Shown here: piece by piece, positions 14,593-23,377 of the stretch
Layout of the letters: every line of letters begins with the position of its first letter
Position numbering within the stretch: the first letter of the stretch is position 1
Assembly: GCA_030620155.1 (NCBI GenBank)
Contig: JAUXFF010000003.1
Span: 1-49,654, forward strand
Length of the DNA stretch: 49,654 bases
Direction: 5' to 3'
DNA from: Candidatus Cloacimonadota bacterium
GTDB taxonomy: Bacteria; Cloacimonadota; Cloacimonadia; Cloacimonadales; TCS61
Program-made: the position numbers and the translations under genes
The notes under the pieces: generated by a model
Database searches by the model: none
Seen by the model: the letters and a program-made list of their open reading frames with translations, nothing else
Told to the model about the DNA's origin: nothing

Positions 14593-14602
14593 TTATTCTC
14601 CT

Positions 14603-14783
14603 TTTATATATTTCTCGCAAAGACGCTAAGCTCGCAAAGAAATACTTATTTATAATTTTACTAAGTAATTAAAAACATTAAATAGATTCATAGTAGAGTT
14701 TCTAAGCAATATCGTTAGGTTAAGAAATTCTCTTTTAATCATATATTTGAGATCTTTGCATCCTTTGAACATTAGCGAGAGAA
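14603..14783. repeat. Direct repeat copy A flanking the GxxExxY gene
   Basis: tttctcgcaaagacgctaagctcgcaaagaaatactta...attttactaagtaatt...attcatagtagagtttctaagcaatatcgtt...tagcgagagaa; partner at 15177-15360. Confidence 0.9.
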
Positions 14784-14792
14784 AAATTTTTT

Positions 14793-15170
14793 TCATAATT
14801 TATTTACGATCCTTGTGATCCCATCTTTGATTAGATTTACATTGAAATTGATTAATAAACCTAGTTTTAATTCACTTAATTTCAAATAAGTTAGTAGTTG
14901 TTTCTTATGAACAGGTAAAATATCTTTGACTGACTTTAATTCAATTATTACTTTATTCTCAACAATAATATCAACTCTAAAGCCAAAATCAATAATCTTA
15001 TCATCATATTTTATCGGGACGCCCACTTGATTTCGAATATTCAATCCCATCTTTGTTAAATCATATATCATTAATTTTTCATAAACAGATTCAAGAAGAC
15101 CAGGACCAAACCTTTTGTGAATCCTGTAAGCACAATCGACAATAATTTTTGATATTTCGTTTTCTGTCAT
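14793..15170 (-). CDS. GxxExxY family protein (PD-(D/E)XK-like)
   Basis: CAYRIHKRFGPGLLESVYEKLMIYDL contains GxxExxY; FRVDIIVENKVIIELKSVKDILPVHKKQLLTYLKLSELKLGLLINF. Confidence 0.92.
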   Translation of the reverse strand: MTENEISKIIVDCAYRIHKRFGPGLLESVYEKLMIYDLTKMGLNIRNQVGVPIKYDDKIIDFGFRVDIIVENKVIIELKSVKDILPVHKKQLLTYLKLSELKLGLLINFNVNLIKDGITRIVNKL

Positions 15171-15176
15171 ATTTTC

Positions 15177-15360
15177 CTTTTTTATATTTCTAGCAAAGAC
15201 GCGAAGCTCGCAAAGAAATACTTATTCATAATTTTACTAAGTAATTAAAAAAAAATAAGTAAATTCATAGTAGAGTTTCTAAGCAATATCGTTGGGTTAA
15301 AAAATTTTCTTTTAATCATATATTTAAAATCTTTGCGTCCTTTGCGCCTTAGCGAGAGAA
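15177..15360. repeat. Direct repeat copy B flanking the GxxExxY gene; its edge supplies the gcvPA stop codon
   Basis: tttctagcaaagacgcgaagctcgcaaagaaatactta...attttactaagtaatt...attcatagtagagtttctaagcaatatcgtt...ttagcgagagaa. Confidence 0.9.
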
Positions 15361-16942: not shown

Positions 16943-17686
16943 TTATATCAATCTCAACCCTGAAATAATCGAAAGTATTCCCATAATCATCAGAAGAACC
17001 AGTGTGATTTTCCTGAATGATTCTTCTTTGATCTTTTTTGATAAAATATTTCCAGCTAAAACTCCTATTAATAAAGAAGGGAAAAATTTTGCTGAATAAC
17101 TTAAAACCTGAGTTGTGATAAGCCCATTCCAAAAATAAACCGGGATAGTAAAAATATTCAGGATGAAAAAATAAACTGCTAGATTTGCTCGAAATGTTTG
17201 TTTGTTCACTCCCTGATTTGAAAGGAACAGAATTACCGGTGGACCGCCCATGGATATACTTCCACTTAATATTCCACTGAATATTCCAATCGGAATCATG
17301 GATAGTTTTTCCCGTTTGATCTCTTTTCTGAAACCTGAAAGAAGAAGAATTCCAAAAATGGTAATAAATATTCCAATTATAAGTTTTATGATGTTATCAT
17401 CTAAAACAACAAGAAAATAAGCTCCTAATGGCATTCCTATTATTCCGAAAATCATTAAAAGCCAGATTTTTTTTATTTTAAAAGCTTTTCTGGCAGAAGA
17501 GAAGACAACAATATTGATAACAAGAGAGAACAAAACAAGTATTGGAACAACGATTTTGGGGGAGATAAAGAGCGTTATCAAAGGAACTGCCAGGATTGAG
17601 AAACCAAAACCGGATAAACCCTGAAGCATTGCAGAAAAGAAGATAATCAAAGAACCGAATATTATTATATCGGAGATTAAATTCAT
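16943..17686 (-). CDS. TauE/SafE family sulfite exporter-like membrane protein
   Basis: SAMLQGLSGFGFSILAVPLITLFISPKIVVPI and GILSGSISMGGPPVILFLSNQ motifs. Confidence 0.9.
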   Translation of the reverse strand: MNLISDIIIFGSLIIFFSAMLQGLSGFGFSILAVPLITLFISPKIVVPILVLFSLVINIVVFSSARKAFKIKKIWLLMIFGIIGMPLGAYFLVVLDDNIIKLIIGIFITIFGILLLSGFRKEIKREKLSMIPIGIFSGILSGSISMGGPPVILFLSNQGVNKQTFRANLAVYFFILNIFTIPVYFWNGLITTQVLSYSAKFFPSLLIGVLAGNILSKKIKEESFRKITLVLLMIMGILSIISGLRLI

Positions 17687-19833
17687 GATTTTTGTATTGC
17701 AGGAAGAGTGAACTTCACGGTAGTTCCCTTCTTTGGCTTACTTTCAACTTGTATTTCACTTTCATGCATTTCAACGAATTCTTTGCATAAGATTAATCCC
17801 AGACCCGAGCCTTTCTCTTTTGCAGTTCCGGTCATTTTAAAATTCTCATCTATCTTGAAAAGTTTGTTTTTATCTTCATCACTTATTCCAATTCCTTCAT
17901 CAGAAACAGATATTTGGATAAATTTTCCAATATTTTCTGATCTTATTTTTACTTTACTTTTCTCATAAGAAAATTTTATGGAATTATTAATAAGACTCTG
18001 TAAAATTGAATTCAGCATATTTTCATCGGCAAGAATTAAATCTTCTTCATCTGTTTCATTTATAAGCTTTATATTTTTTTGGGAAGCCATTCCTTCCATA
18101 AGAGCAATATTGTTATCAATAATATGTTTTAAATTTAATTCTTCCGGTTTATACTCCATTCTTCCGGTTTGCACTCTTGCCCATTTAAGAAGATTATGCA
18201 GTAGATTGAAAAGTTTTTCTGATGAGATTTTTAATTCTGATGCAAGTATCTTTACCATGTCTTTATCATAATTTTGAATATCATCTGATAAAAGACTTGA
18301 ACCCGCCCTAAAAGAAGTAAAAGCATTCTTCATGTCGTGAGCAATAATGGAAAAGAATTTATTCTTGGTTGCATTCAATTCTTCAAGCTCAGTATTTACT
18401 CTTTCCAGTTCTTCTTTTTGATTAAATATCTGTTTATTGGCATCAGCTAATTGCTTATTTGCTTTAATCTTAAGCCGATATCCTCTATATATTACAAAAG
18501 CTAAGATTAAAATAAATACCAATCCCGAAATTAAAAAAGTTACATACATTTGCTGGATTTTGTTTTGAATTTTTAAGTTACTAATTTCCTTTTCCTTTTT
18601 CGTAGTTTCATATTTTATATCAAGTTCCATAAATTTCTTAATGGTTTCTTCATTAAATATTGAATCTTTAATAGCTGCAAAAAGTTTATAATATACGAGT
18701 GCTTTTTTATATTCTTTAAGTGCAGCGTAGGCCCTTGAAAATAGCTCGTAATTATACTTTAAATCTTCTTTATTGTTTAACTCTTTAACCAGGATTAAAC
18801 TATTATTAAGATATTCAATAGCTTTATTATTATTCCCAGTTAAAATATTAATCTTACCAAGGTTAAGATATGTTCTTGCAATTCCTTCCTTGTCACCAAT
18901 TTCTTTGAAGTAATCTAAAGAATTCAGAATATAATCTTTTGCCATATCATAATTTCCCAGAGCCATAAATGCTTCTCCTGCTCCCTGTATAGCTTGCCCA
19001 ATATCTTTTTTACTCCCAAATTTTTCTGAAATCTTTAAACCTTTTAAATAATGATCTAAAGCTAATTCATAATTGTCTATAGTCATATAGAGATTACCAA
19101 TATTATATAAAGGAGTAATACACCTGAATTCGTATTCTTTTTTTTCAAAATATTCCAGTATCTTAAAATAATATCCTAAAGCCTTATCATAATTGTTCCA
19201 GGAGTGATAAACAGCAGCTATATTATTCAAAGTTTTGTAATATGATTCTTCATCACCCATCTCTTCAAAGAATGCCAATGATTTAAAATAATGATCCAAA
19301 CCTTTTTCATAATCTCCCAAACTTGCATACAAAGAGGCAATATTTAACTGTATCTTTGCTAACTCTATTTTATCCCCGCGTTTCTTCACAATTTCAAGTG
19401 ATCTCAAGAAAGTTTCCAAAGCTTTTTTAGAATCACCTTTATTAATATAAAGAACAGCTATTGAATTCAGACATCCGGAAATACCTTTTTCATATTTAAT
19501 TTTTTCAGATAGAGACAGACCTTTTTTAAAATATTCCTCCAAAGCAATATCAAAATCTCCGGATAATAGATAACCATTTCCGGTAAATATTAATGCATTT
19601 GCTTCCTGTTCTTTATCTTTATATTTCCTTGCCAGTTCTAAAGCCCTGGTGCCATACTCAATTGTTTTTTTAGGTGATATATACCAGTTTTCTTGTGCTA
19701 GTTGATTTAAAATCTCAGCTTTCTTCTTTTCCGGAACTTTTTTTAATTCCGATTCCAAACTATCAATCTTCGTTTGCGAAAGAAGAATACTACTTGCTAT
19801 GAATATAATTAGGGAAAAAAGAATCTTTTTCAT
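17683..19833 (-). CDS. TPR-containing membrane sensor histidine kinase
   Basis: Signal-like N-terminus, ~8 TPR units, TM segment near YVTFLISGLVFILILAFVIYRGY, H-box FFSIIAHDMKNAF, N/G boxes (LQSLINNSIKFS; GIGISDEDKNKLF; GSGLGLILCKEFVEMH). Confidence 0.93.
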   Translation of the reverse strand: MKKILFSLIIFIASSILLSQTKIDSLESELKKVPEKKKAEILNQLAQENWYISPKKTIEYGTRALELARKYKDKEQEANALIFTGNGYLLSGDFDIALEEYFKKGLSLSEKIKYEKGISGCLNSIAVLYINKGDSKKALETFLRSLEIVKKRGDKIELAKIQLNIASLYASLGDYEKGLDHYFKSLAFFEEMGDEESYYKTLNNIAAVYHSWNNYDKALGYYFKILEYFEKKEYEFRCITPLYNIGNLYMTIDNYELALDHYLKGLKISEKFGSKKDIGQAIQGAGEAFMALGNYDMAKDYILNSLDYFKEIGDKEGIARTYLNLGKINILTGNNNKAIEYLNNSLILVKELNNKEDLKYNYELFSRAYAALKEYKKALVYYKLFAAIKDSIFNEETIKKFMELDIKYETTKKEKEISNLKIQNKIQQMYVTFLISGLVFILILAFVIYRGYRLKIKANKQLADANKQIFNQKEELERVNTELEELNATKNKFFSIIAHDMKNAFTSFRAGSSLLSDDIQNYDKDMVKILASELKISSEKLFNLLHNLLKWARVQTGRMEYKPEELNLKHIIDNNIALMEGMASQKNIKLINETDEEDLILADENMLNSILQSLINNSIKFSYEKSKVKIRSENIGKFIQISVSDEGIGISDEDKNKLFKIDENFKMTGTAKEKGSGLGLILCKEFVEMHESEIQVESKPKKGTTVKFTLPAIQKS

Positions 19834-19975
19834 TTAAATCTCCAAGTGTACAATAAAATTTAAATTACAAAAAGATAACAATTAAATATATGTCAAATTT
19901 TAAAATGTTAACCTACATTAATTTAAAGAAGATCTCTATTATTTTAAACAATTAATAATAATTCGTGAAAATCCG

Positions 19976-20033
19976 TTTACCCCGTGAAATCCTGCGAAGC
20001 AGGAACAGCAAAGCTGTTATTTCACGGGGTAAA
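19976..20033. repeat. Perfect nested palindrome able to form a three-way junction
   Basis: TTTACCCCGTGAAAT | CCTGC GAA GCAGG | AACAGC AAA GCTGTT | ATTTCACGGGGTAAA: 15-bp outer stem enclosing two perfect 3-nt-loop hairpins, no leftover bases. Confidence 0.9.
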
Positions 20034-20035
20034 TC

Positions 20036-20091
20036 TGTGTTCTATTATACCTTCCTTGAAAGCTTGCCGAATACTTAAACAGGGGAGTGAA
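20036..20091 (+). repeat. ~55-bp intergenic direct repeat, copy 1 (upstream of LptD-like gene)
   Basis: tgtgttctattataccttccttgaaagcttgccgaatacttaaacaggggagtga; resembles 23322-23377. Confidence 0.7.
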
Positions 20092-20129: not shown

Positions 20130-22604
20130 ATGCAAAATATGAAAAAATCTGTTTTGCGCGGGACTACTGTAAAATTACTTTTTATTGTTTTTTGTTGTTG
20201 GAGTGTTTTAATTCATTCCAATGAAAATAACAATGAATCCCGATTTCAGGTTGAAGACAGCCTGGAAATTGATTCTTTGAAAATTGTTGAATTTGAAACA
20301 GATTCTCTTTTTTATTCTGCCGACAGTGTATTTTATTTTTCTCTGGAAGATAAAATCAAACTTACCGGGAATGCAGCAATCAAATATGAAAACTCAAATA
20401 TTAAAGCAGATACTATTTCAATAGATCTAAAAAAAGAACAGGCTTTTTCCAAAGGACAATCTTTTTTACAGGATGGAACTCAAATTTTATTAGGTAGAGA
20501 AATCTATTATGATTTTAATCAGAAAGTCGGACTAATAAAACACGGTGCAAGTAAATTCGATAAGGGTTTCTATTATGGTGATGAAATAAGGAAAGTTGGC
20601 AAAAAAACTTATGATGTTGATAATGGAAAATTCACAACGTGCAGTTCTTTGAACCCCCACTTTTATATTCATGCTTATAAATTCAGATTGTATCGTAATG
20701 ATAAAATTGTTGCAAAACCGATTATTTTTTCGGTTAATCATTTCCCTGTTTTTATATTACCATGTGGGACTTTCACTGTTAAAAGAGGAAGAGAGCGAGG
20801 AATTTTAGTCCCTTCCCCAGGTTATAATAGTGTGGATGGAAAGTTTATTGAAAATATCGCTTTTTACTATCCTTATAAAAATTATGCTGATATTATTCTG
20901 GCTTTTAATTATTATGAAAAAACCGGCTGGGAAGTAGATTTTAACGGTATCTATAAAAAACGTTACTCTTATTATGGAAATTTCGATACCCGTTTTCAGA
21001 AAAAGATCCAGGGACCTGATGTTTCTAGACAGGAATGGTATATAAAAACAAAACACCATTCTGATCTAAGTAACAGAAAAACTTTTGATGTTAACCTGGA
21101 ATTTCTGAGCAGTACAAGAGTATTCGAAGGCAGTACTGATATTGATGAAAGACTGATCGAAAAAATTACTTCAAGCCTGGCTTATAAGAAACCTTTTTTA
21201 AATAGTATACTAAATCTTTCTGCGAAATATGTTGATAATCTGGAAGAAGAGAAGAAAGATATTACCTTACCTTCAATTTCTTATTCTTTACCTTCAAAAC
21301 CGGTTTATGAACTCTTTATCTCGGATGATGACAAAATACAGGAGGATTCCTGGTTTAAAGGATTCTCATTTTCTTATAGTTTTCTAGCAACTCACATAGG
21401 AGATATTAATGATCCGGATGCTAACTTTGAAGATGTGATCTATAAAACAAAAACAGATTCCCTGGGAAATCATATCACTCAACATAACGCAGGAGTAAAA
21501 CATTATGGAAGATTATCTTATACATATAAATATAAAGGATGGTTAAATCTCTCTCAATCCATCTCCGGAAATGAAGCCTGGTTCGATAGAGATACTTCTG
21601 GAACCAGATTCGTTCGCGGTTCGGATTATAAAACCAGCACAAATCTGTCTTTTTCTTTATACGGGGCTAAAGAAATTCCCAGGTTCTATATAAAAGCCGT
21701 AAGACATATAATTACTCCTTCTTTAAGTTTTTCCTATAGACCGGATTTTACTGAAAATTCAAAATATTACAGCTTTGGAGGTATCAGCTTAAATAGAGGC
21801 TCGAAACAAAGAAGTATAAGTATTTCATTAACAAATAAATGGCAGCTGAAATTAGCTGAAACAGAAACTAAAAAGGAAAGAAAACTCAATGATTTTTTCA
21901 AAATTAGCTCAAAATTGAGCTATAACTTTGAAGCTGAAGGAAAAGGATTCAGCAATGTAAGCCATACAATTAATTTAAATCCTAAAAGTATCTCATTTGA
22001 TTTTTTTAATTTGTCAATTAGACCATGGGGAACCTTAACTCAAGATCCCTATGAACTCAAATTTAACGATTGGGATCGTTCAAAATGGGACCTGGGAATC
22101 TCTAACTGGACTTTTAACCTGAATACAAAATTAACCCTCTCCGGTGATGCTAATTATATCGATTACTTCCCGGAACCTGAAAATGAATTTGTCACCGGCA
22201 GATTTTTCCAGGATGATACTCTCACAGTTGAAGAAGAAAGAATAATTACTACTTTGAAAGAATTGGAAGAACTCTCCAGGGATAAAAAAAACTGGTCCAT
22301 ATCATTTTCCCATACCTATAAAACCAATAAAACCAATTTTGAAAATAAAAATTATACAAGCGACCTGAGAATGTCTCTTTCAGCTAAAATCTCAAAAAAC
22401 TGGTCGGTTTCCTACAATAATTATATTAACTTAAAAGATAATGAACTCGTTTCACATAATTTTACTATTACTCGGGACCTTCACTGCTGGAAAATTGTGT
22501 TTAAATATACGAAACAGGGAGACTACTGGAATTATCAATTCAAATTGTTCAATATCAAACTCCCCGATGCATTGCAATTCAGAACCTCTGATCATAAAAG
22601 TTAA
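20130..22604 (+). CDS. lptD: LptD/OstA-like outer-membrane LPS-assembly protein
   Basis: OstA-like LTGNAAIKYENSNIKADTISIDLKKEQAFSKG plus long beta-strand-rich barrel region. Confidence 0.8.
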   Translation: MQNMKKSVLRGTTVKLLFIVFCCWSVLIHSNENNNESRFQVEDSLEIDSLKIVEFETDSLFYSADSVFYFSLEDKIKLTGNAAIKYENSNIKADTISIDLKKEQAFSKGQSFLQDGTQILLGREIYYDFNQKVGLIKHGASKFDKGFYYGDEIRKVGKKTYDVDNGKFTTCSSLNPHFYIHAYKFRLYRNDKIVAKPIIFSVNHFPVFILPCGTFTVKRGRERGILVPSPGYNSVDGKFIENIAFYYPYKNYADIILAFNYYEKTGWEVDFNGIYKKRYSYYGNFDTRFQKKIQGPDVSRQEWYIKTKHHSDLSNRKTFDVNLEFLSSTRVFEGSTDIDERLIEKITSSLAYKKPFLNSILNLSAKYVDNLEEEKKDITLPSISYSLPSKPVYELFISDDDKIQEDSWFKGFSFSYSFLATHIGDINDPDANFEDVIYKTKTDSLGNHITQHNAGVKHYGRLSYTYKYKGWLNLSQSISGNEAWFDRDTSGTRFVRGSDYKTSTNLSFSLYGAKEIPRFYIKAVRHIITPSLSFSYRPDFTENSKYYSFGGISLNRGSKQRSISISLTNKWQLKLAETETKKERKLNDFFKISSKLSYNFEAEGKGFSNVSHTINLNPKSISFDFFNLSIRPWGTLTQDPYELKFNDWDRSKWDLGISNWTFNLNTKLTLSGDANYIDYFPEPENEFVTGRFFQDDTLTVEEERIITTLKELEELSRDKKNWSISFSHTYKTNKTNFENKNYTSDLRMSLSAKISKNWSVSYNNYINLKDNELVSHNFTITRDLHCWKIVFKYTKQGDYWNYQFKLFNIKLPDALQFRTSDHKS

Positions 22605-22796: not shown

Positions 22797-23169
22797 GCTC
22801 CTCTGGAGCAACAGTCTGAATCCTGAAGGGGTGCCCACACCACCCTTAAAGGGTGCAATAATATAACCCGATATGTTAACATCGGAATTGACATACATAT
22901 CATCACCCACACCACCCTGAAAGGGTGCAATAATATAACCCGTATGTAAATGTCGGGATTAGGAGCAAACAAAATCCCAACCACGAAGTGGTGAAATAAT
23001 TTAACCCGATGTGTCAACATTGGAATTGACATACATATCATCACCCGCTCAATCCTGGAAGGATTGAATATTAATAGCCGCAGTAGAAACCTTTGGATAA
23101 AAATAACATATCGAATACAACCCTGAATGGGTTGAAAAAAACCAACATGAGCTCAAGCTCCAGAGGAGC
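22797..23169. repeat. Array of short hairpin repeats with covarying arms
   Basis: GCTCC-TCT-GGAGC (22797), CACCC-TTAAA-GGGTG (22841), CACCC-TGAAA-GGGTG (22913), ACCAC-GAA-GTGGT (22980), AATCC-TGGAA-GGATT (23051), CAACCC-TGAAT-GGGTTG (23118), GCTCC-AGA-GGAGC (23157); plus a longer direct repeat aacccgatRtgt[t/c]aacat[c/t]ggaattgacatacatatcatcaccc. Confidence 0.85.
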
Positions 23170-23285
23170 GTTCCATCAACCCATAACAGCATATTAAGGG
23201 GGTTCTTCTTAATTCGTGAAATCCGTGTTCTATAAAAATAAAATATTAAAAAATCCTTAATAATCCGTCTAATCCGTGTCATCCG

Positions 23286-23320
23286 CCTGCCAAGCCGTAT
23301 CCGGCAGGTGCCGGAGAAGG
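23286..23320. repeat. GC-rich palindromic insert in an AT-rich intergenic repeat
   Basis: CCTGCC-aagccgtatcc-GGCAGG followed by GCCGGAGAAGGC, embedded between 'aatccgtgtcat' and 'tgttctat'. Confidence 0.6.
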
Positions 23321-23321
23321 C

Positions 23322-23377
23322 TGGTGTTCTATATTCCCTCTCTTGAAAGTTTGCTGAATATTTAAACAGATGGTGAG
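23322..23377 (+). repeat. ~55-bp intergenic direct repeat, copy 2 (upstream of giant gene)
   Basis: tggtgttctatattccctctcttgaaagtttgctgaatatttaaacagatggtgag; resembles 20036-20091. Confidence 0.7.

Follow-up and report, generated by a model that had tools for sequence, protein, structure and literature searches.

Does a perfectly paired palindrome between two divergent genes serve those genes, or is it a piece of DNA that happens to have landed there? The question arises in the window (the whole stretch of 49,654 nucleotides of a Cloacimonadota contig that was analyzed), where a 296-bp gap separates a gene for a TPR histidine kinase (17683-19833, minus strand) from one for an LptD-like protein (20130-22604, plus strand). 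The gap holds a 58-nt three-way junction at 19976-20033. Below, we follow this element through its own genome, its phylum, and other phyla and ask which mechanism best accounts for its distribution.

A three-way junction and its copies in the source genome

On the plus strand, sequence and fold define a perfect 15-bp outer stem, formed by the left arm TTTACCCCGTGAAAT (19976-19990, with the core CCCCGTGAAAT at 19980-19990) and the right arm ATTTCACGGGGTAAA (20019-20033, with the core ATTTCACGGGG at 20019-20029). It encloses two abutting perfect hairpins, CCTGC-GAA-GCAGG (19991-20003) and AACAGC-AAA-GCTGTT (20004-20018), both of which are evident from the sequence and from DNA and RNA folding. 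In total, 26 Watson-Crick pairs are formed and the only unpaired bases are the two 3-nt loops. The three-way junction is the minimum-energy fold both as DNA (-24 kcal/mol, z -8.35) and as RNA (-35 kcal/mol, z -6.96), and in neither case did any of 200 shuffled sequences fold as well. A chance origin of the fold is ruled out by these shuffles and by the reversed-pattern controls, which gave no matches. Thus, the original prediction had the coordinates, the complete base assignment, and the divergent gene context right.

The source genome is a draft MAG of 2.5 Mb in 243 contigs, an assembly that breaks at repeats. The 11-nt arm CCCCGTGAAAT occurs 22 times exactly, against none for the reversed control. 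A strict pattern in which only the arms are fixed and the interior is free, CCCCGTGAAATN{8,38}ATTTMACRGGG, retrieved 18 distinct elements (19 strand matches, as the window copy matches on both strands), again with none for the reversed control. The genome-wide search for the arms with a variable interior that had been proposed along with the prediction therefore uncovers a dispersed family with constant arms. With a 99-nt composite query consisting of the element and its flanking repeat, 47 matches were obtained, corresponding to roughly 18 elements that are nearly complete and to others that are partial, some of these lying at contig ends. Most copies combine CCCCGTGAAAT with ATTTAACGGGG or ATTTCACAGGG so that one pair of the outer 11-bp stem is mismatched, and the window copy, with its perfect outer stem, is an exception. 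Two elements, L012 and L018, carry their interior in reverse orientation with respect to the arms.

The window holds other repeats as well. A GxxExxY gene (14793-15170, minus strand, TIGR04256), one of five in the source genome, lies between two direct repeats of 88 to 94% identity (about 14594-14783 and 15170-15360, within 14594-15360) that carry CGCAAAGACGC motifs, an arrangement resembling a cargo gene between repeats. A further repeat family, with short palindromes (CACCCTGAAAGGGTGCAATAATATAACCCG), has two 91-nt copies of 81% identity at 22838-23080, 138 nt apart. A single open reading frame of 7,752 amino acids spans 23797-47055; by eye, it contains repeated Ig-like-looking sequence, and its C terminus resembles a secretion sorting domain.

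Filled and empty sites

Most of the 18 strict copies sit inside a dispersed host repeat, aaatccgtgagaatccgt...gtcatccGTGTTCTAT. The flanks of the window element (...aatccg and tctgtgttctat) belong to this repeat: its left part, aattcgtgaaaatccg, occupies 19960-19975, the next base, t, doubling as the first base of the outer stem, and its right part, tctgtgttctat, occupies 20034-20045 (both plus strand). The source genome also contains the repeat without the element, e.g., aaatccgtgagaatccgtctaatccgcgtcatccGTGTTCTAT, next to filled forms in which TTACCCC...GGGGT stands between aaatccgtgagaatccgtcctatccgt and gtcatccGTGTTCTAT, so that filled and empty sites can be compared directly. Across the genome the insertion point within the repeat is nearly constant, and no direct repeat beyond about 2 to 3 bp was seen at the junctions of filled and empty host repeats. 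A second stretch of host repeat in the window (23206-23332, plus strand) lacks this element; its second unit is broken near the same insertion place by a different palindrome, CCTGCC (23286-23291)...GGCAGG (23303-23308). The 46 nt 3' of the element (gtgttctat...aaacag, 20037-20082) recur with 83% identity 3.3 kb away, at 23324-23369, a likeness that extends beyond the host repeat proper.

Orthologous sites in other Cloacimonadota genomes behave likewise. In another genus of the phylum, the host repeat is filled in one genome (G111) and free of the element in two others (G114 and G108), where it adjoins the same conserved coding flank. G116 has 217 nt of inserted DNA, element included, that the corresponding site of G115 lacks. 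The claim that the element interrupts a dispersed repeat is thereby upheld, as empty repeats turn up within the source genome and also at an orthologous position in a different genus. Uniqueness and the lack of an empty site, named beforehand as grounds for giving up the prediction, were not what we found: copies and empty sites both exist. At a further orthologous locus, one hairpin reads AATCCCGATATTTCGGGATT in G108 versus AACAGCTTTACTGTT in G114, both of them paired, while the other hairpin and the flanks are conserved; the position is that of hairpin 2 in the window element. In the pair L191/L192, G120 has, within a CCTGCCCCGTAAGG... palindrome, an extra CCCAGTTGGATAATAAATCCAACGGGGTAAAC (about 32 nt) that is absent from G119, possibly a clean insertion of a related hairpin.

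Not every copy need have arrived by transposition. Composites of element and host repeat stand in tandem, 108 to 194 nt apart, in the source genome, and comparison of G109 with G115 reveals a tandem duplication of the element. Composite duplication with the host repeat thus yields part of the copy number, which counts against our preferred explanation, since these copies need not reflect transposition of the element by itself. The main rival, recombination of the composite repeat, accounts for these tandem copies. In its full form it needs no dedicated enzyme: palindromes would arise and be perfected by strand switching at hairpins during replication and, carried along by the larger ATCCGTG...GTGTTCTAT repeat, would spread through duplication and gene conversion. 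The near-constant insertion point agrees with this, as does the lack of a linked transposase (see below), and the hairpin exchange and inverted interiors resemble recombination between copies. However, the arms recur unchanged in many phyla at sites that lack the host repeat, and amplified, genome-specific families with patchy presence look like a mobile element. We therefore regard template switching without an enzyme as a possible but somewhat doubtful account of the family.

The same junctions bear on a MITE moved by a DDE transposase, in which the outer arms would be the terminal inverted repeats of an unseen autonomous transposon. Constant terminal inverted repeats around a variable interior are what such an element would have. 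Nevertheless, there is no target duplication beyond 2 to 3 bp, and 19 of the 22 exact arms in the source genome lie within short elements while the remaining 3 have no partner arm, so that no long autonomous copy is visible in this draft assembly. Moreover, an interior of 8 to 38 nt is very short for a paired-end complex, and the inner pairing would be left unexplained. All this makes a DDE MITE quite improbable.

Conserved pairing and spread across phyla

A scan of GTDB species genomes with the strict pattern returned at least 116 matching stretches; the phyla among the matches listed are Bacteroidota, Patescibacteria, Cloacimonadota, WOR-3, Neomarinimicrobiota, Omnitrophota, Bipolaricaulota, and others. 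Viral contigs gave no strict-pattern match, and no similar sequence was found in phages or plasmids. General misbinning is an unlikely cause of this spread because several matches lie on long contigs (60 to 635 kb) and the interiors differ by genome; single short contigs could still be misbinned. Individual genomes appear to have amplified their own versions, with about 25 distinct elements in the Bacteroidota genome G125, 10 copies of one element type in G128, and 26 arm matches in the 0.8-Mb gracilibacterial genome G135. Coding matches in Verrucomicrobia (L081, L098, and L131) and a pair in Clostridia (L067/L133) are probably fortuitous or of another nature. Outside Cloacimonadota, some elements (L079, L090, L101, L119, L139, and L144) lie within a larger outer palindrome and have CTTG or CCTG tetramers as direct repeats on either side, an omnitrophotal example being CACGGG-CTTG-[element]-CTTG-CCCCGTG.

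While the arms stay constant, the interiors change and yet remain paired. Among 26-nt interiors (n=16), 88.7% of the predefined 5-3-5/5-3-5 positions were paired, compared with at most 67.5% in 500 shuffles. For 28-nt interiors in a 6-3-6/5-3-5 layout (n=14), the values were 97.4% versus 71.4% in shuffles; this set was given whichever of two layouts suited it better, which introduces a mild bias. Counts of this kind are also inflated by related sequences. Many inner-stem pairs are seen as two or three Watson-Crick types across elements; the compensatory variants that the prediction had suggested looking for are thus present, and the inner stems, hairpin 1 of the window element included, covary. 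Among the at least 116 distinct elements listed, about one third fold into two hairpins, others into one, and some into none. The elements are also modular. In G125, a whole sister palindrome, GCTTG-CCCTGTGGAAT...ATTCCACAGGG-CAAGC, replaces the small hairpin GCTTCGC of another copy. The sister arms CCCTGTGGAAT, CCCTGTGTAAT, and CCCCGTTAGAT hint at a broader family, CCCYGTKNRAT. Perfect pairing had been taken to imply recent insertion or selection. Given that inner-stem pairing is kept across phyla, recent insertion is needless as an explanation, and structural constraint or correction accounts for the perfect stems at least as well.

Covarying stems and a very stable RNA fold, in copies that are mostly intergenic, might equally suggest a structured RNA or cis-regulatory element (an attenuator, mRNA stabilizer, or bidirectional terminator) selected at its sites. 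Several observations speak against this. There is no Rfam family (the sole weak match, off target, lay near the element and none fell on it), no T run follows the 15-bp stem, and neither a convergent-gene nor a strand preference is apparent, with 24 codirectional, 8 convergent, and 5 divergent contexts, small numbers in each case. No arm was found upstream of LptD orthologues in the family (one orthologue has no upstream sequence, and the DNA is too diverged to align), and no gene family neighbors the elements in common. We consider such an RNA role unlikely, and the effect of the element on the histidine kinase and LptD-like genes at the window site is probably incidental. An intrinsic terminator in particular is disfavored: the 15-bp stem is not followed by a T run, the contexts show no preference for gene ends, and the lone terminator-like match of the scan uses other pairs. 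The same indifference to gene orientation, strand, and convergence, within these small numbers, supports mobility.

A dispersed, intergenic palindrome could also help to organize the chromosome as a putative target of gyrase, an IHF-like protein, or another nucleoid or topology factor, similar to some REP functions reported for E. coli (PMC6006769). Here the distribution within the phylum is telling: elements occur in only 15 of 125 Cloacimonadota genomes, and their absence from most of them argues against a core chromosomal function. We hold a nucleoid site to be very improbable.

Proposed movement in trans and relation to known systems

The explanation that we favor, with middling confidence, is that of a non-autonomous, dispersed palindromic DNA of the REP/MITE type that is moved in trans, most likely by a Y1/HUH transposase. 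An outer stem of 11 to 15 bp (core CCCCGTGAAAT / ATTTCAC[A/G]GGG) would frame one or two exchangeable perfect hairpins, and the DNA, once single-stranded or cruciform, would adopt the shape of a hairpin or three-way junction. An enzyme acting in trans, most likely TnpA-REP-like, would then read the outer stem, cut the element, and re-insert it, leaving at most about 2 to 3 bp of target duplication and landing it in other repeats and palindromes. Inner hairpins might subsequently be exchanged or turned around, or give way to other palindromes, when copies recombine or insertions nest. A constant stem, interiors that are free but paired, the lack of a long target duplication, and landing in palindromes together fit a hairpin-reading, single-strand mechanism such as that of Y1 HUH transposases, which is established for IS200/IS605 and proposed for REPs (PMC6006769).

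Candidate enzymes are at hand, though rarely next to the elements. The source genome has eight Y1_Tnp genes, and 9 of 10 element-bearing genomes tested contain genes of this kind, the exception being the Patescibacteria-type genome G130, which gave no Y1 match. None of the eight has an element copy within 1.5 kb; in other element-rich genomes, 1 of 30 Y1 genes has an element within 200 bp. Unrelated Y1 relatives lie 1.5 to 4 kb from a few element loci, and no flanking gene family is common to many of them. A relaxed arm gave 6 matches in 115 kb of Y1 loci versus 1 in 156 kb of LptD loci, the latter being the window's own copy, but these loci come from different genomes and 3 of the 6 matches overlap in one place. 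Several Y1 genes carry their own, different palindromes. At L256 (980-1960), for instance, a Y1_Tnp gene (1185-1637) has palindromes of its own on either side, AACCGTT.AAACGGTT and CCACCAACTAAAGTTGGTGG, after which comes a nested CCCCGTTAGAT palindrome enclosing a CCCCGTTGGAT one. At the foot of the window stem, neither GTAG or GT[AG]G nor CGTC is present (the feet read aatccg and tctgtg, complements included); other copies have tta, tca, cctg, or cttg. A likeness to integron attC sites (GTTAAAT/ATTTAAC) was dropped because the half-sites point the other way. Hence, of the proposal that this is a mobile cruciform, possibly serving as a REP/RAYT-type substrate, the behavior as an insertion is supported and the RAYT link is not. 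As no linkage to Y1 genes was found, an HUH enzyme is something that we infer, along with a single-stranded intermediate and horizontal transfer.

Alternatively, and more tentatively, the elements may form a distinct, self-nesting, modular class of three-way junctions spread over many phyla, Patescibacteria included, in which the outer stem would be read and palindromes placed into hairpins with no need for a neighboring RAYT. In either case, the same arm across phyla, changing but paired hairpins, and filled and empty sites offer a concrete substrate for studying how palindromes move and for asking how distant phyla come to share miniature palindromes. They also carry a warning that such palindromes are not to be read as promoters or RNA regulators.

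In conclusion, the element is real, dispersed, structurally maintained, and common to many phyla, and it is a new variant of REP/MITE-type miniature DNA. A literature search for the arm returned only unrelated papers, and the available text of PMC3733652 and PMC6006769 gives no account of a three-way junction combined with nesting. Like the REP, BIME, and REPIN sequences that these papers associate with RAYT (TnpA-REP, Y1 HUH), it is short, mostly intergenic, patchy, clustered, and present in many dispersed copies (18 strict ones in 2.5 Mb here and about 25 in G125); it is likewise taken to be non-autonomous and shares its genomes with Y1 genes. In contrast to them, it has two inner hairpins in a three-way junction, a constant outer stem, and nested modules, it lacks a GTAG foot, and no flanked RAYT gene was found. 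According to PMC3733652, GTAG- and CGTC-tagged REPs occur in eight phyla, and the CGTC repeats seem to have no dedicated transposase. Our elements resemble the latter as dispersed palindromes of several phyla, Bacteroidetes included, but differ in the missing CGTC foot and in forming a three-way junction where the CGTC repeats, as described there, form a single stem-loop. With bacterial MITEs they share small size, non-autonomy, conserved inverted ends (15-bp perfect arms here), and intergenic insertion, while being much shorter, with a paired interior, and showing neither a target duplication nor, among the 22 arms of the draft source genome, an autonomous partner. A further parallel may be the Bacteroidetes TnpA-REP subclass 2.6, whose Y1 genes have on their flanks atypical secondary structures that recur at other places in the genome (PMC6006769). 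With the same outer arms around interchangeable inner hairpins in many unrelated phyla, the family points to a type of miniature mobile DNA that has been little described.
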